Positions 7,089-63,649 of a stretch of 64,000 bases of DNA are shown here, one piece after another. The translations under genes and the position numbers were made by a program. The first letter of the stretch is position 1. Every line of letters starts with the position of its first letter. The notes beneath the pieces are model-generated. The model saw only the letters and a list, made by a program, of their open reading frames with translations. It searched no databases and had not been told where the DNA came from. The stretch spans positions 124,001 through 188,000 of the forward strand of contig JAVJQK010000122.1 in NCBI GenBank assembly GCA_040218145.1, given 5' to 3'. Origin of the DNA: Sandaracinaceae bacterium (lineage in GTDB: Bacteria; Myxococcota_A; Polyangia; Polyangiales; Sandaracinaceae).

Positions 7089-9434
7089 CTATCCGCGGGC
7101 GCGCACGACGTGCATGCCGCGGCGGGTCTCGACGCAGATCTTGAAGCCCTCGAACTTGGGCAAGTAGGAGAGCGGCGGGGGCTTCGTGCGGGTGCCGCGC
7201 ACCATGCGGAGCAGCACCTGTCGGCGGTCGAGATCGTAGTCGACCTCGTAGCCCGCGTCGCCGAGGTCGACGCGCCGCGGGTAGCGCTCGTCGAGCAGGT
7301 CACGGATCCACTCGGGAAGCGCGTCGGGCAGGAGATCGTCGACCGACAGGAGCTGCGCGTCTTCGCCCGTCTCCAGCCCCAGCTCCGCGATGCGCGCGCG
7401 GAGGTGATCTTCGAGCGTGGGCACGGGCGCGTCGTCGACCTCGATCGGCACGCCCGAGACCTCGAAGCCCGCCGCGGCGAGGCGCTGCGCGAGCGCCTTC
7501 TGCGTCAGCCGCTCCTCGATCGCCTGGCGCGCGCCGCGGAGCATGCGGCCCTCGAGGATCAGCTTCGCCACGGCCCGCCGCGCGAGCGCCCCCTTTGGGC
7601 TCTCCTCGCGTTCGTCGAGCACCTTCTTCGCGTAGACGCGCTCGACGGTGGCCACGACCTTGCGGCGCGCGAGCTTCACGCCCGCGAGCCGGTCGCGCCC
7701 GAGGCCCGCGTCGCGCAGCCAGGCGAGCGGCGCCGGCATCGCGCAGGTGACGAAGACGCGCGTGTCGCGCTTGCCCACCCCGATGGCGCGCTCGTCGAGG
7801 GCGAGGATCGCCTCGAGCTTCTCCTCCGCCGCCTGCGCCGCGCTCTCTCGCCCGAGCTCGACCTCGGTCCCACCGTTGGAGAAGGCCACGCGTCGCTTGC
7901 GACGGCGAGCCACGTGGGCGAGCCGCGGGTCGGCGCGGAGGAAGAGCATCGCGAGCGCGCGGCGGTCGATCCGGGTCTCCTCCGGGTCCACGCGGTGCGC
8001 CTTCCGCAGCCGCTTCGCGTTCCGCCGCGCCTCGCCGAGCACCCACGCGTTCAGCCCGTGTCGGCGCGGGTCGCCCTCGCGCATCGCGCGCAAGACGGCC
8101 GTCACGTCGCAGCCGCTCTCGCGGAGATCGTCCGCCGGGTCCTCCGGGCGCCAGGAGAAGAGAGGCCGGCCCACCGCGAGGGCCGAGACGAGGTCGATCA
8201 CGTCGCCGAGGAGCGCGGGCTCCTTCTGCGCCTCGATCAAGAGCCGCGCGTGGGGCGCGTCGAGGGGCTGCTGGAAGAGCTCGCGCCCGAGCGCGGTGAG
8301 CGCGCCCGCCTCGTCGAGCGCGCCAAGCGCGGCCAGCTCCTCCTCGGCCGCGTCGAGCGCGTAGTCCTTCGGCGCGTCGAGCAGCGGGAGGTCACGCAGG
8401 CGACGTCCCGCCGCCGCCGCCGCGAGCACCATCGGCACCAGCGACTCGCGGTGCACCTCCGGCGGCGTGCGCGGCTCGAGGATCGCCGCCTCGCTCCAGA
8501 GCCGGTAGGCCACGCCCGGCCCCGTCCGGCCCGCGCGGCCCGCGCGCTGCTCGGCGCTGTCCATCGCGATCGGCGAGAGCGTGAGATGGCCACGACCCTT
8601 GTGATAACGCGTACGGCGCACGAGCCCGGCGTCGATGACCACGCCGATGCCGGGGATGGTCACGCTGGTCTCCGCGACGTTGGTCGCGAGCACGACCTTG
8701 CGGCGCTGGGTCTGGCGGAAGGCCCGGCCCTGCTCGTCGAGGCTCAGGCTCCCGTGCAGCGGGACCACCTCGAAGGGGCCGCGGATGGCGTCGGCGCAGG
8801 CGGCGATCTCGGCGCGGCCCGGCAAGAACACCAGCACGTCCCCCGGATCGTCCGCCGCGCGCGCGAGGGCGCTCACCACGCGCTCGGTCAGGTCCTTCCC
8901 CTCCGGCAGCTGCGCCCCGCTCCCGAGGTAACGCGTCTCGACCGGATGCAGGCGCCCCGTGCCCTCGAGGTAGACGCCGTCGAGGTGCGCCGCGACCCGC
9001 TCTCCGTCCAGGGTGGCGCTCATCACGGTCAGCCCGCGCGCGCGCCGACCGAGCAGGCCGAGCAGGAGATCCACGTCCAGCCGCCGCTCGTGCAGCTCGT
9101 CCAGGATCACGTGGTCGGCGCGCTCGAGCGCCTCCAGATCCCGCAGCGCCACGCCCGGCGTGACGAAGCGGACCCGGGTGTCGGCCGAGGCGCGCACGTC
9201 GTCGCGCACCACGTAGCCGATCTCCCCGCCGAGCTTCGCCCCTTCGAGCTCCGCGACCCGGGCCGCCAGGCTCCGGCACGCCACGCGGCGCGGCTCCACG
9301 ACGATCACCCGCCCCGGCAGCCATCGAGGGACCTGCGTGGATTTGCCGCTGCCCGTCGGCGCGGCGAGCACGAGCGGGGCGCGCTCCACGGCCGACAGCA
9401 CCTCCTCGCGGAGGGCGTCGATCGGGAGGATCAA
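7089..9434 (-). CDS. hrpB: ATP-dependent helicase, HrpB-like (DEAH/RHA family)
   Basis: This 781-aa superfamily 2 RNA/DNA helicase has Walker A GSGKST (28-33), DExH box DELH (112-115), motif III SAT, and motif VI QRAGRAGRTG. A ratchet-like region with many Leu and Arg follows. Length and order fit HrpB (about 800 aa). The family usually has a conserved HrpB C-terminal domain; here the end is Arg- and Leu-rich and diverges, so HrpB is a closest-family call. The start is a TTG at 9434 that overlaps the TGA of the upstream small membrane protein (TTGA), so translation is probably coupled. No ATG or GTG in a sensible position competes, and the first motif begins only about 20 residues in, as usual for HrpB. 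Confidence 0.85.
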   Translation of the reverse strand: MILPIDALREEVLSAVERAPLVLAAPTGSGKSTQVPRWLPGRVIVVEPRRVACRSLAARVAELEGAKLGGEIGYVVRDDVRASADTRVRFVTPGVALRDLEALERADHVILDELHERRLDVDLLLGLLGRRARGLTVMSATLDGERVAAHLDGVYLEGTGRLHPVETRYLGSGAQLPEGKDLTERVVSALARAADDPGDVLVFLPGRAEIAACADAIRGPFEVVPLHGSLSLDEQGRAFRQTQRRKVVLATNVAETSVTIPGIGVVIDAGLVRRTRYHKGRGHLTLSPIAMDSAEQRAGRAGRTGPGVAYRLWSEAAILEPRTPPEVHRESLVPMVLAAAAAGRRLRDLPLLDAPKDYALDAAEEELAALGALDEAGALTALGRELFQQPLDAPHARLLIEAQKEPALLGDVIDLVSALAVGRPLFSWRPEDPADDLRESGCDVTAVLRAMREGDPRRHGLNAWVLGEARRNAKRLRKAHRVDPEETRIDRRALAMLFLRADPRLAHVARRRKRRVAFSNGGTEVELGRESAAQAAEEKLEAILALDERAIGVGKRDTRVFVTCAMPAPLAWLRDAGLGRDRLAGVKLARRKVVATVERVYAKKVLDEREESPKGALARRAVAKLILEGRMLRGARQAIEERLTQKALAQRLAAAGFEVSGVPIEVDDAPVPTLEDHLRARIAELGLETGEDAQLLSVDDLLPDALPEWIRDLLDERYPRRVDLGDAGYEVDYDLDRRQVLLRMVRGTRTKPPPLSYLPKFEGFKICVETRRGMHVVRARG

Positions 9435-53020: not shown

Positions 53021-53248
53021 ATGTGCACCACGAACGAACGACGAGAGATCACCCTGGACGTGCAGGGCATGACCTGCGCCACCTGCGCTCAGCGCGTCTC
53101 CGGGGCGCTGCGCGCCGTGGACGGCGTGCTGGAGGTGCAGGTCCATGTGCGCGAGGGCCGGGCGACGGTCTCGCACTCCGGGGCGTCCACCGACGCGCTC
53201 ATCCACGCGCTCGAGCGCGTCGGCTACACCGCGGCCCAGGCGGCCTGA
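53021..53248 (+). CDS. copZ: Heavy-metal-associated copper chaperone
   Basis: This 75-aa single HMA domain has the metal motif GMTCATC (about 17-23) and the beta-alpha-beta pattern of CopZ/Atx1-type proteins. The start has GGAGG nine bases upstream. It should carry Cu(I) in the cytoplasm to the CopA-like ATPase encoded on the other strand. It is under the CGTAAG-N16-CGTC promoter. Confidence 0.88.
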   Translation: MCTTNERREITLDVQGMTCATCAQRVSGALRAVDGVLEVQVHVREGRATVSHSGASTDALIHALERVGYTAAQAA

Positions 53249-53321
53249 GCCTCCCTGGCCTTCGACTCGACGAGGCGCCCCGGGCCAGTGGCTCGGGGCG
53301 CCTCGTCGCGTGGGCTGCGAT

Positions 53322-53975
53322 CTATCGTCCGCAAGTACAGTCGACGCAGCCGCGGCTCGCGCACGCGCCGCACGTGGCGGTGACCTTCTCGCGCAAGGCG
53401 GCCCGCGCTCGGAAGACACGCACGCCGGCGTTGTTGCTCGTGATCCCCTCCTCGGCGGCGTAGTCCTTGACCGCGACGCCTTCGACGTCGATGCGGCGGA
53501 TGGCGGCCGAGTACTCAGGCTTCAGCTCGTCCGCGATGGCCGCGACGCAGCGGCAGATCTGGTCGTGCGTCTCGCGCCCCGCGCGAGCGACCTCCAGCTC
53601 GGTGGCGAACGCCTCGAGGGCGCGGCGCGAGGCGCCTCCGCGTCGCGCGTGGTCCGTGCTGGCGTTCCGGAGCGTGCGATAGAACCAGGCCACCGCCGCT
53701 CCCGGGTCTCGGAGATCGGCGAGCTTGTCGAGGCTTCGGACGAACGCGTCCTGCAGGATGTCCTGCGCGAGGGCGCGGTCCCCGAGCCTCCGCTCCAGGA
53801 AGCCCAGGAACTCGGGCTGGCGCGCCGCGAGCGCCGTCGCGAGCTCGGTCGGCGTCGGCCGCTCGGATGTGGGCCGCTCGGAGGTGCGCCGCTCGGGCAT
53901 GACGTCGTTCTCCTCGAATCCAATCTGGGGCTTCGGCGCGGCTCCGCGCAAGGGTGCATCGTGGCTCGAACGCAT
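53322..53975 (-). CDS. corE: CorE-type ECF sigma factor with Cys-rich C-terminal domain
   Basis: This is a 217-aa sigma-70 family protein from ATG 53975, chosen because GAGGAGG precedes it and a CGTC -10 element ends only about 24 bp upstream; ATG 53900 is a second candidate, also with a Shine-Dalgarno. Region 2 (RALAQDILQDAFVRSLDKLAD) and region 4 (VKDYAAEEGITSNNAGVRVFRARAAL) are ECF-like. The C-terminal tail holds CxxCx4CxxCxC (202-215, CGACASRGCVDCTC). In Myxococcus xanthus, CorE uses such a Cys-rich tail to sense copper directly, without an anti-sigma factor. This gene probably does the same and is the regulator of the surrounding copper genes. Confidence 0.87.
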   Translation of the reverse strand: MRSSHDAPLRGAAPKPQIGFEENDVMPERRTSERPTSERPTPTELATALAARQPEFLGFLERRLGDRALAQDILQDAFVRSLDKLADLRDPGAAVAWFYRTLRNASTDHARRGGASRRALEAFATELEVARAGRETHDQICRCVAAIADELKPEYSAAIRRIDVEGVAVKDYAAEEGITSNNAGVRVFRARAALREKVTATCGACASRGCVDCTCGR

Positions 53976-53998
53976 GGCGACCTCCTCTGTCCCGAGCG

Positions 53999-54024
53999 GA
54001 CGGAGGAGGTCGCCGGTCATTACA
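53999..54024 (-). promoter_or_regulatory. ECF-type promoter TGTAAT-N16-CGTC upstream of the sigma factor
   Basis: The minus strand reads TGTAAT (54019-54024) with CGTC (53999-54002), spacer 16. It implies autoregulation. The Shine-Dalgarno of ATG 53975 would lie within a very short leader. Confidence 0.65.
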
Positions 54025-54050
54025 CCCGTCATTACACCCGTCACTACACC
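54019..54050. repeat. Three 12-bp direct repeats at the sigma-factor promoter
   Basis: ATTACACCCGTC, ATTACACCCGTC and ACTACACC (truncated) occur at a 12-bp period. The first copy is the -35 element of the sigma-factor promoter, and the others lie upstream of it on the minus strand. They may be extra binding sites or simple duplication of the -35 element. Confidence 0.65.
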
Positions 54051-54062
54051 CCGGGGGGGCGC

Positions 54063-54416
54063 CTATCGCGGCAGAACGACGATCGCGCCGCGGATCATGC
54101 CCATCCCGCATCGGAACGCGTACTCCCCGGGGGACAGCGCGGGCAGCTCGACCACGGTGGCGCGGTTCAGCGCCAGGGTGCGGCGGATGCCCAGCTCGGG
54201 GAAGACGACGTCCGCCACGCAGGGCGACGGGTCGCGACGCAGGAAGCGGAGGCGCACGCGCTCGCCGACCCGCACCGAGACCCGATCCGGTCGGTACGCG
54301 CCGTCGACGATGATCTCGATCTCCCGGACCTCGTCCGCGTACGCGAGCTCGGCGGCGCCCGCGAGGCCCAGCGCCAGGGCGCCAGCCAGCCACGGAAAGT
54401 TGGTGACCTTCTTCAT
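54063..54416 (-). CDS. Small periplasmic cupredoxin (paralogue)
   Basis: This is a 117-aa protein from ATG 54416, with AAAGGAG upstream. It has a signal peptide (to about LAYA) and a cupredoxin domain with CVADVVFPELGI and a closing AFRCGMGMIRGAIVV. It closely resembles the cupredoxin at 52103. It lies 31 bp after the CopA gene on the same strand, so it is co-transcribed with it. The Cys and CGMGM ligand set is typical of copper-binding EfeO-like proteins. Confidence 0.82.
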   Translation of the reverse strand: MKKVTNFPWLAGALALGLAGAAELAYADEVREIEIIVDGAYRPDRVSVRVGERVRLRFLRRDPSPCVADVVFPELGIRRTLALNRATVVELPALSPGEYAFRCGMGMIRGAIVVLPR

Positions 54417-54447
54417 GAGAGACTCCTTTCGATCGGTTGCAGACGCC

Positions 54448-56739
54448 TCATCCCGCGAACCGCCGGAGCCGGAGCGAGCTGAGGAGGACGGAGACACTCG
54501 AGAGCGACATGGCGGCGCTCGCGAGCACGGGGGAGAGCAGCCAGCCCGTCCACCCGTAGAAGAGGCCGGCCGCGATCGGGATCCCGACCAGGTTGTAGAT
54601 GAAGGCCCAGAACAGGTTCTGGCGGATGGTGCGCAGGGTGGCGCGCGCCAGGCGGAGCGCGGTGGGGAGCTTGGCCAGGCCGCCGCTCGCGAGCGCGATG
54701 TCGGCGGCCGCGACCGCGACGTCCGCGCCCGAGCCGAGCGCGACGCCGACGTCGGCCCCGGCGAGCGCGGGGGCGTCATTGACGCCGTCCCCCACCATCG
54801 CGACCCGCCGGCCGAGCCTTCGCTCCTCGGCGACCACGGCCGCCTTGCCTTCGGGCTTCACCCCGGCGATCACACGCTCGATGCCGAGCTCCGCCGCGAC
54901 CGCGCGCGCGGTCCCCTCTCGGTCCCCGGTGAGCATCGCGACGTCGATGCCCATGGACCGGAGGGCGGACACCACACCGCTGGCGCTCGCGCTGGGTCGG
55001 TCCGCGACCGCGACCATGCCCGCGAGCGCGCCGTCCACGGCGACGAAGGACGGGGTGCGCCCACCGGCCGCGAGCGCTTCGGCGGCCGCCTCGAGGTCGG
55101 CCGTTTCGACGCCCGCGAGGGCGAGCCAGTCGGCGGTGCCCACCCGCACCCGGCGGCCGCTCACCTCGGCTTCGACCCCGAGGCCCGGGCGGCTCGCGAA
55201 CCCGACCGGGCTGACGACGCGGGCGCCACGATCCCTCGCACCTTGCACGAGCGCCCGCGCGATGGGGTGCTCGCTCTCGCTCTCCACGGAGGCGACCAGC
55301 GCGAGCAGCTCGGCCGCGTCGAACCCCTCCACGCCGATGACGTCCGTCAGGCGGGGTTGGCCCTCGGTGAGGGTGCCCGTCTTGTCGAGGAGCACGGTGT
55401 CCACGCGGCTGGCCGCCTCGAGCACCGCGCCGCCGCGCACCAGCACCCCCAGCTCCGCGCCGCGGCCGGTCCCGACCGCGATGGCGGCGGGCGTGGCCAG
55501 CCCGAGCGCGCAGGGGCAGGCGATCACGAGCACGGCCACGAAGCGCTCGACGGCCGTCGCGAGGCCGGTGGCCGTCGGGTCCATGAAGAGCCAGACGCCG
55601 AAGGTGATGGCGGCGACGACGAGGACCGCGGGCACGAAGTACGCGCTCACCACGTCGGCTAGACGCGCGATCGGAGCCTTCGACCCCTGCGCCTGGCGCA
55701 CGGCCTCGACGATGCGGGCGAGGGCGCTGTCCGCGCCGAGCGAGCCCACGCGGACCGTGAGGGAGCCGCTCTGGTTGAGCGTGCCGCCGAACACCGGATC
55801 GCCCGCCTCCTTGTCGACGGGCAGACTCTCCCCGGTCAGCATCGACTCGTCGACGGCGGAGCTCCCCCGCATCACCTGACCGTCCGCGGGCAGGCGCTCA
55901 CCGGGTCTGACGAGCACGAGGTCGTCCAGGGCCAGCGCCGTGACGGGGACCTCCTCCACGCCCTCTCGCCCGAGCCGACGCGCGGAGGAGGGCTGGAGCG
56001 CCACGAGCCCCCGCACCGCATCGGAGAGGCGCTTCTTGGCGCGCCCTTCGAGCACCTTGCCGAGGAGGACGAAGGTGAGGATCGCCCCCGCGGCCTCGAA
56101 GTACACGTGCGGCACCGCTCCGTGCTCGGCGTGCGGGAAGAGCTGCGGCGCGACCACCGCGACGAACGAGTACGCGAAGGCCGCGCCCGTCCCCATGGCC
56201 ACCAGCGTGTTCATGTCGCTGGTGCGGTGCTTCGCCGCGATCCACGCGAGGCGGAAGAAGCGACGGCCCGGACCGAGCACGACCACGCTCGCGAGCACGA
56301 GCTGGAGCGCGCGACCCAGCGGCCCGTCGGCGCCGGGGATCGCGCCGTGGGACATGCCGAGCACCAGCAGGGGGATCGTGAGGGTCATGGCCACGAAGAA
56401 GTCGCGGTAGAGAGCCTTGCGCTCGCGCTCCTCGGCCGCCTCGCCTTCGTCGGCGCGCTCCGTCGGCGTCTCCTGCCGCGCGACGGGCACGGAGTAGCCG
56501 GCGGCCTCGACCGCGCGGGCCAGCGCCGCGGGGTCGGTGCGAGCTGGGTCGTAGGTCACCGTCGCTCGCTCGGTCGCGAAGTTGACGGCCGCCTGCGACA
56601 CGCCGTCGACGTCCGACAGGGCGCGCTCCACGCGGCGCACACAGCTCGCGCAGTTCATCCCGGCGATCGGCAAGAGGCAGACCTCGCCCTCGCTCTCGGC
56701 GGGCCCTGTGCTCGCCGGCATTTGCATCGTTCCTTGCAT
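54448..56739 (-). CDS. copA: Copper-exporting P-type ATPase
   Basis: This is a 763-aa P1B-type ATPase. The single N-terminal HMA domain has GMNCASC (27-33). It carries the CPC motif (408-410), DKTGTLT (Asp452), SEHPIARA and [10 protein letters not shown]. It exports Cu(I) from the cytoplasm. Eight hydrophobic segments are in the expected places. The start ATG 56739 has GGAGG at four to five bases upstream. The promoter CGTAAT-N16-CGTC directly precedes it, with its -35 overlapping the stop of the multicopper oxidase gene. Confidence 0.93.
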
Positions 56740-56772
56740 GTGTCCTCCACTCGTCTCGGGGTCCGAGGAGAA

Positions 56773-56798
56773 GACGCAGCGGGCGGCGGCGCATTACG
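56773..56798 (-). promoter_or_regulatory. ECF-type promoter CGTAAT-N16-CGTC upstream of copA
   Basis: CGTAAT (56793-56798) and CGTC (56773-56776) on the minus strand, spacer 16. The TAA of the upstream multicopper oxidase gene is built into the -35 element, so copA can be transcribed separately from the operon above it. Confidence 0.65.
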
Positions 56799-58107
56799 CG
56801 TCGGGGACCGAGATGCCGTCCGCGCGAAGGCGCGCCGCGTCCGCACGCGCCGGGACGGTCCCCGCGGGGTGCTGGTACCAGGCGCCAGGGTCGGCGCGCT
56901 CGGGCTCGTCGCGCACCTTCAGCACGGTGAACATGCCGCCCATGTCGATGTACGAGAACGGCCCCTCGCCGCCCCGCATCGGCAGGCTGTTCGGGGGCAC
57001 CGGCATCTCCATCTCGCCCATGCCGCCCATTCCGCGCGCCCCCATCGACATGTAGCCGGGCGCGATCCGGCGCATGCGGCGGTCCAGACGCCGGGTGTCC
57101 GCGCCGACCATGTTGGGCATGCCGTGACCCATCTGCGTCATCACGTGGTGCGTCATGTGGCAGTGCATCGCCCAGTCTCCGGGCTCCGTCGGCACCATCT
57201 CGATCACGCGCGTCGAGCCGACGGGCACGAGGACCGTGGTCTCCGGGATCTGCGCGCTCGGGGACACGTAGCCTCCGTCGGTGGCGGTCATCACGAAGCT
57301 GAGCCCGTGGATGTGGATCGGGTGATGATCCATCGGGCTCAGGTTCCCGAGCCGGATGCGCACCCGCTCCCCGGTGCCCACGAGCAGCGGCTCGGTCCCC
57401 GGGAAGGACTTGCCGTTGAAGGTCAGCACGTTGAAGTCGCTCATCGCGTTCGGATCCGGCCGACGGGCGCCCACCTCGAGCCTCCACTCGTGCGTCATGA
57501 GCGCGAAGTCGCGATCGACCCGCGGACCACGCGGTCGGCGCGGATGCACGATGAACATGCCCGCCATGCCGAGCGCGATCTGCGTCATCTCGTCGTAATG
57601 CGAGTGGTACATGAACGTGCCGGCGTGCCGCAGGTCGAACTCGTAGACCCACGTCTCCCCGCGGGGGATCGGCGCCTGATTGAGGCCGGCCACGCCGTCC
57701 ATGCCGTTGGGCAGGATCAGCCCGTGCCAGTGCACGGTCGTCGGCTCGGGCAGCCGGTTGGTCACGTAGATCCGGACGCGATCCCCCTCGACGGCCTCGA
57801 TCGTCGGGCCCGGCGTGCCGCCGTTGTAGCCCCAGACACGCGCTCGCATGCCCGGCGCGAATTCGTGCTCGAGCTCCTCGGCGACCAGGTGACCCACCTT
57901 GACGCCGTCTCGCGTCGTCCAGGGCAGGGTCGCGCCGTCGGGCGTGACCACCGCGGGCTGGCCGGGGGTGACCATGACCGCCGGGCCGCCGCGCGGTCGC
58001 GAGGGCGGGAGGAGCGCCGTCTCCTGCGCGCTCGCCGGCGCCGCCCGCGTCAACAGCGCCGCTCCGGCCGCCACGCCGCCCCATCGAAGCAGTGATCGTC
58101 GATCCAT
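56794..58107 (-). CDS. Multicopper oxidase, Tat-exported
   Basis: This is a 437-aa protein starting with a twin-arginine type signal (MDRRSLLRWGGVAAG). Copper sites are complete: HWHG (near 119-122), HSHYD, HPIHIHG and HCHMTHH. A Met-rich segment (MSMGARGMGGMGEMEM) near 340-370 resembles the copper-resistance Met-rich loops of CueO/CopA-type oxidases. It probably oxidises Cu(I) to Cu(II) in the periplasm. Its start is one base past the stop of the TolC-like gene (TGAgATG), so they are co-translated. Confidence 0.9.
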   Translation of the reverse strand: MDRRSLLRWGGVAAGAALLTRAAPASAQETALLPPSRPRGGPAVMVTPGQPAVVTPDGATLPWTTRDGVKVGHLVAEELEHEFAPGMRARVWGYNGGTPGPTIEAVEGDRVRIYVTNRLPEPTTVHWHGLILPNGMDGVAGLNQAPIPRGETWVYEFDLRHAGTFMYHSHYDEMTQIALGMAGMFIVHPRRPRGPRVDRDFALMTHEWRLEVGARRPDPNAMSDFNVLTFNGKSFPGTEPLLVGTGERVRIRLGNLSPMDHHPIHIHGLSFVMTATDGGYVSPSAQIPETTVLVPVGSTRVIEMVPTEPGDWAMHCHMTHHVMTQMGHGMPNMVGADTRRLDRRMRRIAPGYMSMGARGMGGMGEMEMPVPPNSLPMRGGEGPFSYIDMGGMFTVLKVRDEPERADPGAWYQHPAGTVPARADAARLRADGISVPDA

Positions 58108-58108
58108 C

Positions 58109-59500
58109 TCAGTGCCCTCCTTCCGTGCCCGGGTCGCTCGCGAGCGTCGCGCTCGTGCCCCCGGTGAAGCTCACCCTCTGCCCGCGCAGGAGCGCGTCGA
58201 GCGCGGCCCGCGCCGTCCAGTAGTCTCGCCGCGCGGCGATCCCCTCGAGCTCGGCCGAGAGCTGCGCGCGGAGCGCGGCGAGGAGCTCGAAGACGCCGAC
58301 CTGCATGGCGTCGTACTGGAGCAAGGTTTGCTCCAGTACGACGCCGCGCGCGGGCACGATGACGTCCGCGTAATGCGTCGCCCGGAGTCGCGCGCTCGTC
58401 AGCCGGTTCCGCGCCTCGCGCGCCGCCGAGCGGACGTCGACGGCGGCGCCCAGATACCGCTCCGTCAGGGCGTCGAAGCGCGCCTGGAACGCGGCGGTCT
58501 CCCCCTCGCGACGGTCGAAGAGGGGAATGGACAGGCTCGCGCCGCCGCCGTACTCCCAGGTCTCTCCGTCCTGCTCGGCGTGCACGTCCACGCTGATCTC
58601 GGGCAACCAGCCCTCCGTCCGCGAGAGCCCCACCCTCTGCGCCAGCGCGGCCAACCGGCTGCGGGTCTCGGCGAGCTCGAGGCTCGCCGTCAGCGCTTCG
58701 CGCTCCAGCGTCTCTGGCAGCTCGTCGCCCGGGGGGACGTCCGGCAGCGTGCCCGCCATCGTCAGCTCGAGCCCGGCGCCGTGCAGCCCCAGCGCGCGGG
58801 CCAATCGCTCGCGGGTCGAGGCGCGCTCGAGCTCGATCTGCGCCACGACGGCCCGCGCCTCTTCGTACGCCGCCACTTGCGTCGCGACGTCCAGCGCCGC
58901 GGTGTTGCCCGCTTCGTAGAGCATCTGCGCGGCGTCGCGAGCGGCGGCGAGGGCCTCGAGCGAGCGCTGGGCGACGGCGAGGGACTGCTCCGCCGCTTGC
59001 GCGGCCAGATACGCGGCCCGCGCCTCGTAGGCGAGCTGCAGGACACGCCCGGCCGCGCGATGCCGCGCCGCCTCCAGGTCGTGCCCGGCCGCCTCGACCC
59101 TCATCGGCGTCAACAATGCGTGCGTGATTGGATACTCGACATAGAGCTCCACCTGCAGCGGCTGGCCGGCATCCTCCTGGCGACGCAGATCGATCTCGAC
59201 CTCCGGGTTCGGCAGCAGGTGTGCCTGGGCCAGCAGCCCGCGCTCCACGCCGAGATCCCGGAGCGAGGCGCGGAGCTCGCGGTTGTTCGCCAGCGCGAGC
59301 CGAACGGCGCCGTCCACGGTCAGAGGCTCGCGCAGGGCTCGCGACACGTCGGCAGGCTCACCGAGGTCCACCTCGCCGAGCACCTCGCGCGGGAGGCGCT
59401 GCGCCGTGAGCTGCTCGATGCGGCTCAGATCGGAGCGGAGCGAGGGCACGCACCCGGTCAGGAGCCCCACGAGCGCCACCAGTCGGAGCTCAGCGCCCAT
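58109..59500 (-). CDS. TolC-type outer membrane factor lipoprotein
   Basis: This is a 463-aa protein from ATG 59500, with GGAGG upstream. The signal peptide has lipobox LTGC. The rest consists of long Ala/Glu/Leu-rich helices in two repeats (EARAAYLAAQAAEQSL, ARNRLTSARLRATHYAD), as in TolC/CusC proteins. It makes a trimeric exit channel. No membrane fusion protein or RND pump is adjacent, so the inner-membrane partner is unclear. It lies between a His-rich lipoprotein and a multicopper oxidase, suggesting copper export. Confidence 0.85.
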   Translation of the reverse strand: MGAELRLVALVGLLTGCVPSLRSDLSRIEQLTAQRLPREVLGEVDLGEPADVSRALREPLTVDGAVRLALANNRELRASLRDLGVERGLLAQAHLLPNPEVEIDLRRQEDAGQPLQVELYVEYPITHALLTPMRVEAAGHDLEAARHRAAGRVLQLAYEARAAYLAAQAAEQSLAVAQRSLEALAAARDAAQMLYEAGNTAALDVATQVAAYEEARAVVAQIELERASTRERLARALGLHGAGLELTMAGTLPDVPPGDELPETLEREALTASLELAETRSRLAALAQRVGLSRTEGWLPEISVDVHAEQDGETWEYGGGASLSIPLFDRREGETAAFQARFDALTERYLGAAVDVRSAAREARNRLTSARLRATHYADVIVPARGVVLEQTLLQYDAMQVGVFELLAALRAQLSAELEGIAARRDYWTARAALDALLRGQRVSFTGGTSATLASDPGTEGGH

Positions 59501-59744
59501 GACGGTGCCCTCCGTGGTGTGCGTGCCCCCCCGGCGCTGCGTCGCCCAGACCCTCCCAGCCCTCGCGGCGCTCACCGGGAAGGGGCGGCGCCTCCGTCAG
59601 GGCCAGACCCACTCTCGAGGGGCGGGCCTCGGGCGCGTCGGGGGACGCGGCGGATCCACGGGGGAGCGCGGTTGGGAGCGCGGGCGTGCAGCTGGCGAGC
59701 GCGGCGACGGCCGCGACGGCGGTCATGGTTCGAGCGATCGGCAT
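59490..59744 (-). CDS. Small His-rich lipoprotein
   Basis: This is an 84-aa protein from ATG 59744, with GGAGG five bases upstream. The lipobox is LASC. The mature part is Pro/Ala/Glu-rich and ends with GHAHHGGHRHGR, a likely Cu(II) or Zn(II) binding tail. It overlaps the TolC gene by 11 bp. It lies directly behind the TGTAAT-N16-CGTC promoter, so it is the first gene of the operon. No family is recognised. Confidence 0.78.
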   Translation of the reverse strand: MPIARTMTAVAAVAALASCTPALPTALPRGSAASPDAPEARPSRVGLALTEAPPLPGERREGWEGLGDAAPGGHAHHGGHRHGR

Positions 59745-59886: not shown

Positions 59887-60153
59887 ATGGACACCAAGAA
59901 GCTCTTTCACGCCCTGGTCATGGGGGGCGCGCTCCTGGCCGCGGGCTGCGAGTCCGAGGACGCCACCGACGGCGGCGGCGGGCAGCCCGACGACGCCACG
60001 GCGCCCGTCGCCGACGCCGGGGTGACGCCCTCCGACGCGGGGCCGCCGATGGAGTGCGGGTTCTGCCCCAACGAGGCGTGCTGTGAGACGGCCGAGGACG
60101 GGACCGCGCGGGAACGCGAGGGGCTCGTGTGCTGCTGGGGCACCTCCTGTTGA
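59887..60153 (+). CDS. Small Cys-rich lipoprotein
   Basis: This is an 88-aa protein from ATG 59887, with a GAGGCAGG-like Shine-Dalgarno. The lipobox is AAGC. An Asp/Gly/Thr-rich linker is followed by a C-terminal section with eight cysteines in about 35 residues (CGFCPNEACC, VCCWGTSC). This looks like a metal-binding or disulfide-rich knot. Position next to the copper and mercury genes suggests metal binding, but that is inference. Confidence 0.72.
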   Translation: MDTKKLFHALVMGGALLAAGCESEDATDGGGGQPDDATAPVADAGVTPSDAGPPMECGFCPNEACCETAEDGTAREREGLVCCWGTSC

Positions 60154-60160
60154 GCGAGCT

Positions 60161-60805
60161 GTGAGACGGGAGCGGGCCGCCGCGCGCGTCTGGGCCTTCC
60201 GCGAGCGCACGGAGCTCGAGGCGGGCGCGCTCTTCGACGGGCTCGCCCGCGATCTCGAGTCGAGCGGGGCTCCCCGCGCGCTCGTCCAGCTCGCCGCGCG
60301 CTGCGGCGACGATGAGCGAGAGCACGCCGTGCGATGCCGCGCGGTCGTGGACGCGCTCGACCCGGGGCTCGAGGCGGGCGCGCCCGACCTCCGGAGCACC
60401 CTCGGGCCGGGGTCGCTCTCCGTGGAGGCGCGCGCGCTCTACGCGTCGGTCGCGGTGGGCTGCGTCACCGAATCCCTGAGCACGGCGCTGCTCCTCGAGA
60501 TGCGCGCGCACGTCACCCACCCCGAAGCGCGGGCGGCGGTCGCCGCCATCGCGCGCGACGAGCCGCGCCACAGTCAGCTCGGGTGGGCGCACCTCGCGCA
60601 CGCAGCCTCGCGCGGGAGCGTCGCCTGGTTGCGCCCTCACGTGGACGCGATGGTGCGAGCGGCGAGAGGGGCGGAGTCTCCCCCCGAGCCGGACCTGGAT
60701 CTCCGGCCCTTCGGGATCCTCGACGCGAGGCGAGCGGACGAGATCTGCGCCGACGCGCTCGAGCGCGTCGTTCTCCCAGGCCTCCGCCTCCACGGCGCGA
60801 TCTGA
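60161..60805 (+). CDS. Ferritin-like diiron protein
   Basis: This is a 214-aa protein from GTG 60161, 7 bp after the small Cys-rich gene. It is helical with a duplicated ferritin-like motif: E18 or E20, then DDEREH (Glu52, His55), and in the second half Glu104 and DEPRH (Glu134, His137). This gives an E-ExxH-E-ExxH diiron set. Members of the wider family act in iron storage, metal detoxification or oxidation. No signal peptide is present. Confidence 0.75.
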   Translation: MRRERAAARVWAFRERTELEAGALFDGLARDLESSGAPRALVQLAARCGDDEREHAVRCRAVVDALDPGLEAGAPDLRSTLGPGSLSVEARALYASVAVGCVTESLSTALLLEMRAHVTHPEARAAVAAIARDEPRHSQLGWAHLAHAASRGSVAWLRPHVDAMVRAARGAESPPEPDLDLRPFGILDARRADEICADALERVVLPGLRLHGAI

Positions 60806-60824: not shown

Positions 60825-60856
60825 TTGACTCCGTACCTAGGTACAGGCCCCACAGT
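60825..60856 (+). promoter_or_regulatory. mer-type operator/promoter
   Basis: TTGACT (60825-60830) is followed by CCGTAC and a perfect palindrome GTACCTAGGTAC (60833-60844), then a weak -10 (CACAGT at 60851-60856). It matches the MerR operator pattern TTGACTCCGTAC with a long (about 20-bp) spacer that needs MerR-induced DNA untwisting. The predicted transcription start lies at about the ATG of the next gene, so the mRNA may be leaderless. Confidence 0.75.
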
Positions 60857-60862
60857 GGGCGC

Positions 60863-61564
60863 ATGCCGAAGGTAGAGCTGCTCGTCGATCCCGAGTGCCC
60901 GAACGTCGAGGCCGCGCAGCGCGCCCTCTCCGCCGCCCTGCTCCGCGTGGGTCTTCCGGCCGTGTGGTCGGAGCTCCGTGTGGGCGGGAGGGACCTGCCG
61001 GCCCACGCGCGCGGCCACGGCTCACCGAGCGTCTTCGTCGACGGCGTGGAGATCTCGGGCGCCGCTCCGGGACACGGCAACAGCTGCCGCGTCTACGCGG
61101 GCGAGGATGGGCTCTCCGGGGTGCCTCGAGTCGAGGACATCGAGCGCGCCCTGCGTGGGGCCCGCCCGCCTCGGGCCCGCCGCGCCCTGGCCGCCGCGCC
61201 CGCGCTCGGGCTCGCGCTGCTCCCCAAGGTGGCCTGCCCCGCCTGCTGGCCCCTCTACGCGGGCGTCCTCGGGTCGCTCGGCCTGGGCTTCCTGATGCAG
61301 ACCACCTACCTGCTGCCGCTCGTGTCGCTCGCGCTCCTCGTGGCGCTCGCGGCGCTCGCCATCGGCGCACGCGCGCGCCGCGGCTTCGGCCCTCTCGCCG
61401 TCGGCGTGCTGGGCGCGGCGACGGTGCTGCCGGGCAAGTTCCTCTGGGGCTCCGATCTGGCGACGTACGGTGGCGTGACCCTCATCGCGGTGGCCTCGCT
61501 GTGGAACGCGTGGCCCCGTCGCCGGGTCAGCCCTTGCTGTGAGGCGACCGCCTCGTTTCCCTGA
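60863..61564 (+). CDS. Thioredoxin-like/MerC-like membrane fusion protein
   Basis: This is a 233-aa protein. Residues 1-85 are a small thioredoxin-like domain with DPECPN (Cys near 12) and a cis-Pro loop (GSPSVFVDG). From about 110 the protein has four hydrophobic helices, with CPACWPLYAGVLGSLGLGFL at the start, a close match to the Cys pair and first helix of MerC mercury transporters. The C-terminus has CC (RVSPCCEATA). It may bind Hg(II) or another thiophilic metal and move it across the inner membrane. It is the first gene behind the mer-type operator. Confidence 0.78.
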   Translation: MPKVELLVDPECPNVEAAQRALSAALLRVGLPAVWSELRVGGRDLPAHARGHGSPSVFVDGVEISGAAPGHGNSCRVYAGEDGLSGVPRVEDIERALRGARPPRARRALAAAPALGLALLPKVACPACWPLYAGVLGSLGLGFLMQTTYLLPLVSLALLVALAALAIGARARRGFGPLAVGVLGAATVLPGKFLWGSDLATYGGVTLIAVASLWNAWPRRRVSPCCEATASFP

Positions 61565-61579
61565 GGAGAGGAGACCGAC

Positions 61580-61846
61580 ATGACCAAGAGAGAACAAACC
61601 GTCGAGATCTTGAGCGCTGGCTGCAGCCTCTGCGACGACGCGGAGCAGCTCGTCCGCGCGATCGCCTGCGACCGATGCGACGTGCGAGTCGTCGACGTGA
61701 GCGCTCCCGAGGGAGCCGCGCGAGCGCGCGAGCTGGGCGCCGAGCGCGTCCCGGCCGTCGCGGTCGACGGGGTGCTCCTGTCGTGCTGCGCCGGCGGCCT
61801 GACGGAGGCGGCGCTGCGCTCGGCCGGCGTCGGCGCCGACGGCTGA
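61580..61846 (+). CDS. Glutaredoxin/thioredoxin-like protein
   Basis: This is an 88-aa protein from ATG 61580, with GAGGAGAGGAG upstream. It has a thioredoxin-fold pattern with CSLC near residue 14 (ILSAGCSLCDDAEQ), further cysteines (CDRC, SCC) and the cis-Pro loop (ERVPAVAVDG). It could relay thiols or carry the metal between the MerC-like protein and MerR. The stop overlaps the merR start (TGATG). Confidence 0.78.
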   Translation: MTKREQTVEILSAGCSLCDDAEQLVRAIACDRCDVRVVDVSAPEGAARARELGAERVPAVAVDGVLLSCCAGGLTEAALRSAGVGADG

Positions 61847-62235
61847 TGCGCATCAAGGAGGCCGCCGAGAAGGCCGGCGTCGGCGTGGAGACCCTGCGCT
61901 ACTACGAGCGGCGTGGCCTGCTGGACGCGCCCCCTCGGACGGGAGCTGGCTACAGGAGCTACGACGCCGAGGCCGTGCGAGTCGTGCGCTTCATCAAGGG
62001 GGCCCAGGAGCTCGGCTTCACGCTGAAGGAGGTCGCGGAGCTCCTCGCGCTCCGGGAGGGCGGCACGTGCTCGGAGGCGCGGGCCGCGGCCGAGCTGAAG
62101 CTCGAAGACGTCGGCCGCAAGATCGAGCGGCTCCGCGCCATTCGCGCGGCGCTCCAGGAGCTCGTGAGCACGTGCACGGGGACGGGCAGCACGCGCAGCT
62201 GCCCCATCCTCGAGGCGATGGAGGGGCAGGAGTGA
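61846..62235 (+). CDS. merR: Mercury-type MerR regulator
   Basis: This is a 129-aa MerR family protein. The helix-turn-helix and wing (KEAAEKAGVGVETLRYYERRGLL) are typical. The three Hg-binding cysteines fall at C75, C110 and C119, giving spacings of 35 and 9, exactly those of MerR (82, 117, 126). The ending SCPILEAMEG also matches. It should activate the upstream operator when Hg(II) binds. It is the last gene of the operon it presumably controls, and it converges on the second multicopper oxidase gene with 7 bp between stops. Confidence 0.9.
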   Translation: MRIKEAAEKAGVGVETLRYYERRGLLDAPPRTGAGYRSYDAEAVRVVRFIKGAQELGFTLKEVAELLALREGGTCSEARAAAELKLEDVGRKIERLRAIRAALQELVSTCTGTGSTRSCPILEAMEGQE

Positions 62236-62242
62236 CGGGCGC

Positions 62243-63649
62243 TCAGCGCGGGTCGACGACGATCTCGCTCATCATGCCCAGCTCCGCGTGCTCGAGGATG
62301 TGGCAGTGCGCCATCCAGCGGCCCGGGTTGTCGAGGTGGGCGATGATCTCCACCGTCTCGGAGCCGCCGACGAGCACCGTGTCGTAGAGCCCCGGGCGGC
62401 CCGGGACCTCGAAGAACTGGCCGTGCAGGTGGAAGGGGTGCTCCTGGCCCGCGAGGTTGGCCAGCGTGATCCGGACCGTCTCGCCCTGACCGAAGGTGAA
62501 GAGCGGCTCCATGCGGTGGGCCTCGCCGTTGATGCGCCAGAGGATGCCCTCCTCCGGATCGTTGATCGCGTCGAAGCTCATCTCCACCTCGCGATCGACA
62601 GTGCGCGGCTCGGGCGTGGCGAGCTCCGGCCAGACCAGCTCGCGCGGCTCCACGGCCTCCCCGTCGACGTCGACGACGTAGACCGGGATGGCCTGCTCCA
62701 CGACGTCGCCCGCGTCGTTCACCACCAGCACGTGGCTCTGCAGCGCCACCGTGCCAGCGGCGCCGTAGCGCACCTCGAGCTCGTAGCGCTGCCCGACGGG
62801 CAGCTCGAGCCGATCCGTCTCGAACGGCTCCGCGATGCGCCCGCCGTCGGTGGCGATCACGCGCATCGTCGCCCCGGAGAGCGAGAGGCTCATCGTACGT
62901 GCGTTCGCCGTGTTGACGATGCGCCAACGCTCGATCTGTCCGGGTCGGGCCGTCCGCTCCGGGCCGGGGCTCACCTGCCCGTCCGTCAGCAGGACGTTGC
63001 CGCTCCTGCCGTGCACGAGCTCGGGGTGGAAGCGGAGGAAGGGCGCGATCTGGTCGGTGGCGGGATCGATGAGCACGTCGTCGAGCACGATCATGCGCTC
63101 CGCGTCGAAGACCGGATCCTCGCGGTCGTGCACGATCAGCGTGCCGACGAGCCCGAGCTCGAGCTGCTCGTTGGTGCGAACGTGCGGGTGGTACCAGAAG
63201 GTCCCCGCCTCCGGCACGACGAACCGGTAGGTGAAGGTGCCGCCCTCGGCCGCCACGGGCTCCTGGATGCGGGGCGAGCCGTCCATCTCGTCGCTGATCC
63301 GCAGGCCATGCCAGTGCACGGTCGTCGCGTCCCACGTGTGGTTCTCGAAGTGCACGATCACCTCGTCGCCCACCTTCGCCTGCAGGACCGGCCCCGGGAC
63401 CATCCCGTTGTAGCCGAGCATGGGACGCGTGGTCCCATCGCCCAGATCCACCTCGACCATCTCGGCCCGCAGGCTGACCTCGACCACGTCGGGGTCCGGG
63501 TTCGTGTCCTCGAGCGACGCCTCGGGTCCGATGAGGGCGGGCGCGCTCCAGGCGGGCTCCGTCGAGGCGTCTCCACCCGCGTCGGGTCCGGCGGTGGGCT
63601 CGGCGCAGGCGACGAGAAGGATGGGCAAGAGAGCGGCGAGACGCGACAT
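62243..63649 (-). CDS. Multicopper oxidase lipoprotein
   Basis: This is a 468-aa protein with a signal peptide ending LVAC (lipobox), unlike the Tat-type oxidase at 56794. Copper sites are HWHG, WYHPH, HPFHLHG and HCHILEHAELGMM (type 1 site with Met). The length and order match laccase-like enzymes of the three-cupredoxin type. It is probably anchored to a membrane and faces the periplasm. A plausible sigma-70-like promoter (TTGACC and TAGACG, 17 bp apart) lies just upstream of its start; no copper-type element is seen there. Confidence 0.9.
   Translation of the reverse strand: MSRLAALLPILLVACAEPTAGPDAGGDASTEPAWSAPALIGPEASLEDTNPDPDVVEVSLRAEMVEVDLGDGTTRPMLGYNGMVPGPVLQAKVGDEVIVHFENHTWDATTVHWHGLRISDEMDGSPRIQEPVAAEGGTFTYRFVVPEAGTFWYHPHVRTNEQLELGLVGTLIVHDREDPVFDAERMIVLDDVLIDPATDQIAPFLRFHPELVHGRSGNVLLTDGQVSPGPERTARPGQIERWRIVNTANARTMSLSLSGATMRVIATDGGRIAEPFETDRLELPVGQRYELEVRYGAAGTVALQSHVLVVNDAGDVVEQAIPVYVVDVDGEAVEPRELVWPELATPEPRTVDREVEMSFDAINDPEEGILWRINGEAHRMEPLFTFGQGETVRITLANLAGQEHPFHLHGQFFEVPGRPGLYDTVLVGGSETVEIIAHLDNPGRWMAHCHILEHAELGMMSEIVVDPR

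Follow-up and report, generated by a model that had tools for sequence, protein, structure and literature searches.

The locus studied here raises the question of what a mercury-type regulator controls when its operon contains no mercuric reductase. The operon occupies positions 60825-62235 of the window (the whole 64,000-nucleotide stretch of Sandaracinaceae DNA that was analyzed) and comprises, tightly packed and all on the + strand, a MerR-type promoter and the genes for a 233-amino-acid protein, an 88-amino-acid protein and MerR. An earlier note on this DNA, the coordinates of which were checked and found to be right, had described a mer-type operator with a palindrome, a thioredoxin-MerC fusion, a small CxxC protein and a MerR with three mercury-binding cysteines, and all four elements were confirmed by the comparisons given here. 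It had also remarked on the absence of a mercuric reductase, MerT and MerP, and had suggested a thiol relay or buffer, a supply of mercury to a reductase encoded elsewhere, or a sensor for some other thiophilic metal.

The regulator (61846-62235, + strand), whose start codon overlaps the stop codon of the 88-residue grx gene, found its best family in TIGR02051 MerR with 134.1 bits, compared with 108 for ZntR and 99 for CueR, a score that lies below the TIGR02051 equivalog cut-off of 150.85 bits. In a profile search the top PDB matches were 5crl, which is Tn501 MerR, and 4ua1, which we take to be a Bacillus MerR, and both came ahead of CadR and CueR. Residues C75, C110 and C119 could be aligned without gaps to C82, C117 and C126 of Tn501 MerR, the three Hg ligands of that protein (PMC5027573). 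These cysteines are all kept in 20 of the 23 MerR homologues from modules of this kind, and the first of them is missing in the other three. In a MerR tree, of which 15 of the 36 forks were unsupported, the module regulators and the merA-linked ones did not form separate groups. The closest plasmid-borne MerR, on Nocardia pNF2, adjoins an alkylmercury lyase gene, and some other near relatives (Rhodococcus) adjoin ars genes. The predicted role of this MerR as a mercury-type sensor, and with it the sensing step, is well supported at the sequence level.

The promoter/operator (60825-60856, + strand) consists of a -35 hexamer TTGACT (60825-60830), the palindrome GTACCTAGGTAC (60833-60844), which shows the GTAC/GTAC pattern, and a -10 hexamer CACAGT (60851-60856). 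As is characteristic of Hg(II)-type MerR systems, the palindromic operator sits within a promoter spacer of 19 or 20 bp, here 20 bp. The layout is common to 25 module loci, with the consensus TTGACTCCGTACCATGGTACGGGGTGTACACT; at 20-bp spacing the -10 hexamer of these loci holds its A in 25/25 and its T in 24/25 cases, and the mean match to TATAAT was 3.36 at 20-bp vs 1.16 at 19-bp spacing. Gram-positive mer promoters typically have a 20-bp spacer and Gram-negative ones a 19-bp spacer (PMC5027573), and it is the Gram-positive promoters that the module resembles in the distance between -35 and -10, while differing from them in operon contents. When the host genome was scanned with the operator pattern, sites with no more than one mismatch were found solely at copies of the window operon, namely the window operon itself, two other full copies and one truncated copy, and matches with two mismatches elsewhere were at control level. 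Since the sites with at most one mismatch are confined in this way, the operator is not a product of chance. The start codon lies 6 bases past the -10 hexamer in the window (60851-60865) and at L020, L021, L064, L068, L077 and L081, so that the transcripts from the window operon and from several other loci may be leaderless.

The 233-residue protein (60863-61564, + strand) is a fusion of a DF-family thioredoxin-like domain (NF049942; residues 1-100) to a MerC-like domain with four transmembrane helices (PF03203; residues ~105-220). The MerC match (residues 115-215, encoded at 61205-61507 on the + strand) scored 39 bits against PF03203, above the Pfam cut-off of 27.6, and 27-28 bits against the NCBIfam MerC equivalog models, below their cut-offs of 140 and 170. 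The N-terminal 100 residues matched NF049942 over the whole profile with 43.9 bits, below the cut-off of 70, and the same domain match was present in 17 of 17 fusions. Likeness to the DF family of (seleno)proteins is thus limited to this N-terminal domain, which differs from the family in its score below the curated cut-off, its cysteine form and its attachment to MerC. MerC-type features of the fusion are the four transmembrane helices, a CxxC motif in the first helix (CPAC, residues 125-128) and C-terminal cysteines, present in the window protein as a vicinal pair (residues 225-226) just past the MerC domain; the C-terminal pair is missing from the fusion at L035. Among the fusion homologues C12, C75, C125 and C128 are invariant, and the DF domain holds one N-terminal cysteine (CPN) and lacks a CxxC pair. 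The AF2 model of the fusion had a pLDDT of 75, with the thioredoxin-like N-domain at ~90 and the helical membrane part at lower confidence, and a fold search returned weak thioredoxin and glutaredoxin matches (best E 0.09). By the positive-inside rule, positively charged loops of a membrane protein face the cytoplasm. Since the loops at residues 100-112, 165-178 and 216-233 are rich in arginine and those at 134-148 and 191-200 carry little or no charge, both termini of the fusion, together with the thioredoxin-like domain, would be placed in the cytoplasm. A fusion gene of 99% identity is present in the Sandaracinaceae MAG MED-G138.

Selenoproteins are covered by the DF model, and one TGA codon was present in several DF matches. 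A selenoprotein reading was rejected for L079 (host genome) and L080, where the TGA is the terminal stop of a cysteine-form protein. These two DF proteins are stand-alone (L079 at 7801-8097, on contig 8 of the host genome) and have no adjoining MerC or MerR gene.

The 88-residue thioredoxin/glutaredoxin-like protein (61580-61846, + strand) carries a SAGCxxC motif, the cysteines C30/C33 and a C69C70 pair. Its match to Thioredoxin_3/Glutaredoxin was weak, the Thioredoxin_3 score of 24.4 bits being just below the cut-off of 24.8; its homologues were TIGR00412-like in 23 of 23 cases, and the AF2 model displayed a thioredoxin fold (pLDDT 84). All six cysteines (C15-x2-C18, C30-x2-C33 and C69-C70) are kept in nearly all of the 23 homologues. 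Relatives of the small protein also adjoin MerR on cyanobacterial and Halobacillus plasmids.

The genome search for merA that the earlier note had proposed was run on the host assembly (11.06 Mb in 148 contigs, estimated to be 100% complete), and no protein scored above the MerA profile cut-off of 454 bits, the best value being 327 bits. The matches were identified as dihydrolipoyl dehydrogenases, glutathione reductase and Si-specific transhydrogenase, alongside a glutathione-reductase-like protein (L011) and a weaker match (L014). None of these candidates ends in the C-terminal CC pair that is present in the true MerA controls L083 and L088. MerT was not found in the host genome either, while four of the seven comparison genomes (merA-bearing relatives) gave matches; MerB gave no match in the host genome and none in the control genomes. 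No operator site was located near any reductase of the host. The absence of a mercuric reductase and of MerT that had been claimed for the operon was thus borne out by profile searches of the host genome, in which neither the merA nor the merT of a detoxifying mer operon was found.

MerC occurs three times in the host genome, each time adjoining a MerR of this type. At the two sibling copies, L020 and L021, the gene order is merR, fusion, grx and an HMA lipoprotein gene, and the L021 copy has a second HMA protein. The claim that MerP is lacking therefore stands for the window copy but not for its siblings, which carry MerP-like HMA proteins. The L021 copy lies inside an element of 8,345 bp (142-8486 of contig 98) that has inverted repeats of 38 bp at its ends (142-179 and 8449-8486, 37/38 matching) and encodes a Tn3-family transposase (DDE_Tnp_Tn3, 442 bits). 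Its cargo is merR, the DF-MerC fusion, grx, two HMA proteins, an outer-membrane-like protein and an NHL-repeat protein; no reductase or merA is present within the element, and the 5-bp target duplication expected of Tn3 was looked for and not seen. A truncated fourth copy, at 10911-11909 of L020, combines the end of a Tn3 transposase gene with the same operator and a merR cut at ~116 amino acids. Genes for an NHL beta-propeller lipoprotein adjoin the module at three loci (L021 207-1133, L064 and L077 3071-4045), and this lipoprotein is possibly an extra periplasmic partner.

Other genomes were searched for the same gene order, a further check that had been suggested, and the order merR-merC-grx recurs in ~25 loci of Myxococcota and Acidobacteria. 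No merA-like gene was found inside the module loci, the criterion being resemblance to Lpd and glutathione reductase. The acidobacterial modules contain either the fusion (L037) or a stand-alone MerC (L039, from Acidipila rosea DSM 103428, and L040), and MerP-like HMA genes are present at 12 of 26 module loci. In a survey of 379 Myxococcota genomes, with counts taken from the match table, the full fusion was present in 13 genomes and the small protein in 22, in 18 of which it was directly beside a MerC domain. MerA scored above cut-off in 11 of the 379 genomes, and these 11 include no full-fusion genome; as only ~0.4 MerA-bearing genomes would be expected by chance among the 13 with the full fusion, the zero is not significant and does not allow an exclusion of MerA by the full fusion to be deduced. 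Genomes with the small protein carried MerA more commonly than those without (3/22 vs 8/357; Fisher p = 0.02, a test that ignores relatedness). Where the operon could be read, most Myxococcota merA genes had MerT and/or MerP-like genes as companions, and the operator type with the 20-bp spacer recurs in three canonical merA operons (L113, L121 and L122). At L118, merA is followed 1.5 kb downstream by a merR-grx-HMA set.

The window copy has copper-type genes on both sides (53021-59575 and 62243-63649), encoding an HMA protein, a heavy-metal P-type ATPase, two multicopper oxidases and an outer-membrane efflux protein. The multicopper oxidase gene at 62243-63649 (- strand; Pfam Cu-oxidase domains) is convergent with the operon and outside it. 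Directly upstream of the operator, 60083-60805 encodes a rubrerythrin/ferritin-like protein with a weak Pfam match just below cut-off. Genes for a multicopper oxidase and an efflux protein follow as a second set at L027.

The module shares several features with the canonical mer operon (merRTPA; MerC variants, e.g. Tn21), namely the three-cysteine MerR, the TTGAC..GTAC..GTAC operator, a MerC-type membrane protein, the MerP-like HMA proteins of the sibling copies and carriage by a probable Tn3-family element. It differs in being without merA and merT, merB being undetected, in the fusion of MerC to a DF-type thioredoxin-like domain, in its small CxxC partner, and in a merR that is co-directional with the other genes. 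Previously, merC had been found only in merA operons of Beta- and Gammaproteobacteria (Boyd and Barkay, PMC3466566). In Pseudomonas pseudoalcaligenes CECT 5344, Hg strongly induces the merP1T1R5 cluster, which contains no merA, that gene being present in a second cluster of the same genome (PMC10433974); like the module, merP1T1R5 pairs a mer-type regulator and a transporter without merA, and unlike the module it has MerT/MerP in place of MerC and no DF fusion. A cluster on the Burkholderia contaminans plasmid pB1701 (grx-merR-merT-merP-GDCCVxC; L097 4001-5609) has the same small thioredoxin-like protein and no merA nearby, but again MerT/MerP and not MerC, and no DF fusion. This cluster lies near DUF692, DUF2282 and DoxX genes. 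No description of a DF-MerC-grx module was found in the open-access literature that was searched. Since MerA-less mer clusters of the MerT/MerP type already have precedents, the module, which is conserved and, to judge by the L021 element, probably mobile, represents a new combination of known parts and not a new category.

The best interpretation of these data, to which we would give an even chance, is that the operon is a MerR-controlled, merA-independent variant of mer, in which Hg(II) is moved onto protein thiols and not reduced to Hg(0). A soft metal, most likely Hg(II), would bind the three-cysteine site of MerR, and the metal-bound regulator would switch on the promoter with the 20-bp spacer. 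The induced MerC domain would then bind Hg(II) through the CPAC cysteines in the first of its membrane helices and pass it to the C-terminal cysteines and the N-terminal thioredoxin-like domain of the fusion, both in the cytoplasm. The small CxxC/CC protein, with its six cysteines, would take Hg(II) next, either as a buffer or as a carrier that hands the metal on to an efflux pump or to thiols of low molecular weight. Protection would come from thiol transfer and sequestration rather than from the formation of Hg(0). We infer the identity of the metal, the direction of its transport, the order of transfer and its eventual fate, as we do every step after sensing. The earlier idea of a thiol relay or buffer is, as an inferred mechanism, favoured by the evidence, and the missing reductase means that the cells probably handle mercury by thiol binding.

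Counted in favour of this merA-independent variant were the Hg-type MerR, the operator like that of merA operons, the conserved gene order and cysteines and the HMA genes, together with the proximity of merA at L118, the association of the small protein with MerA, the alkylmercury lyase neighbour on pNF2 and the lack of MerA in the host. Counted against it was the harm to be expected from uptake without a reductase, the title of Nakahara et al. (1979), cited in PMC4570782, being that of a report of Hg hypersensitivity from cloned mer transport fragments. A transporter working without MerA would be expected to damage its cell, so tolerance of the module is probably due to the partner proteins. 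Also counted against it were the MerR score below the equivalog cut-off, the absence of the first cysteine in 3 of 23 homologues, the low DF and MerC equivalog scores, the MerR tree without resolution and the ars neighbours of some near MerR relatives.

The copper genes around the window copy (P-type ATPase, HMA, multicopper oxidases and outer-membrane efflux), and the CopA-type ATPase or multicopper oxidase genes that lie near several other copies, would suit an operon serving a soft metal other than inorganic Hg(II), such as Au, Ag, Cu(I), Cd or an organomercurial. CadR, too, has three cysteines, which lends some substance to the earlier suggestion of another thiophilic metal. However, the C-x8-C loop of MerR and the GTAC/GTAC operator agree with Hg-type MerR and with the local merA operons, and CueR, ZntR and CadR scored lower for this regulator, so that such a role seems unlikely. 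We are more doubtful of a thiol redox relay in which the CPAC motif of MerC carries electrons across the membrane, as in DsbD/CcdA, linking the thioredoxin-like domain, the small CxxC protein and periplasmic thiols in the repair of metal or oxidative damage. Such a relay would be in keeping with two thioredoxin-fold partners and with the CPxC in the first helix that is conserved in the family, but the DF domain offers a single N-terminal cysteine (CPN) where a CxxC would be wanted, and the sequence family is that of MerC, not DsbD/CcdA.

It is improbable that the module feeds Hg(II) to a MerA, or a MerA-like flavoprotein, encoded elsewhere. Genomes with the small protein do carry MerA somewhat more often, merA and merR-grx-HMA are neighbours at L118, and in Synechocystis a MerA-like enzyme is controlled by Glutaredoxin 1 (Marteyn et al. 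2013, as described in PMC8261052). Nevertheless, no MerA exceeded the cut-off in the essentially complete host genome or in any of the 13 full-fusion genomes, and the host has no further operator site, near a reductase or otherwise, and this suggestion of the earlier note was not supported. Export of the metal by the MerC domain would turn the operon into a small efflux system and would account for there being no need of a reductase. The characterized MerT, MerC, MerE, MerF and MerG transporters, however, move Hg inward (PMC3466566), and the MerP-like HMA partners of the sibling copies suit inward transfer, leaving export a very small chance.

Returning to the merA-independent variant, the module may, more tentatively and at rather less than even chance, represent a widespread and mobile form of reductase-free mercury resistance, in which MerR senses Hg(II) and the MerC-thioredoxin fusion and the six-cysteine carrier form a dedicated thiol relay. 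If this is true, Myxococcota and Acidobacteria would have a genetically encoded means of handling mercury without volatilizing it. MerA is commonly treated as synonymous with mercury detoxification, and merA is the gene that surveys count; if genomes without MerA hold a conserved Hg-type operon, the number of Hg-responsive bacteria would be underestimated. Mercury could then stay in biomass and not be volatilized, which bears on mercury cycling, and the finding would also bear on how MerB-positive, MerA-negative cells cope with cytoplasmic Hg(II), a question raised in PMC8261052.
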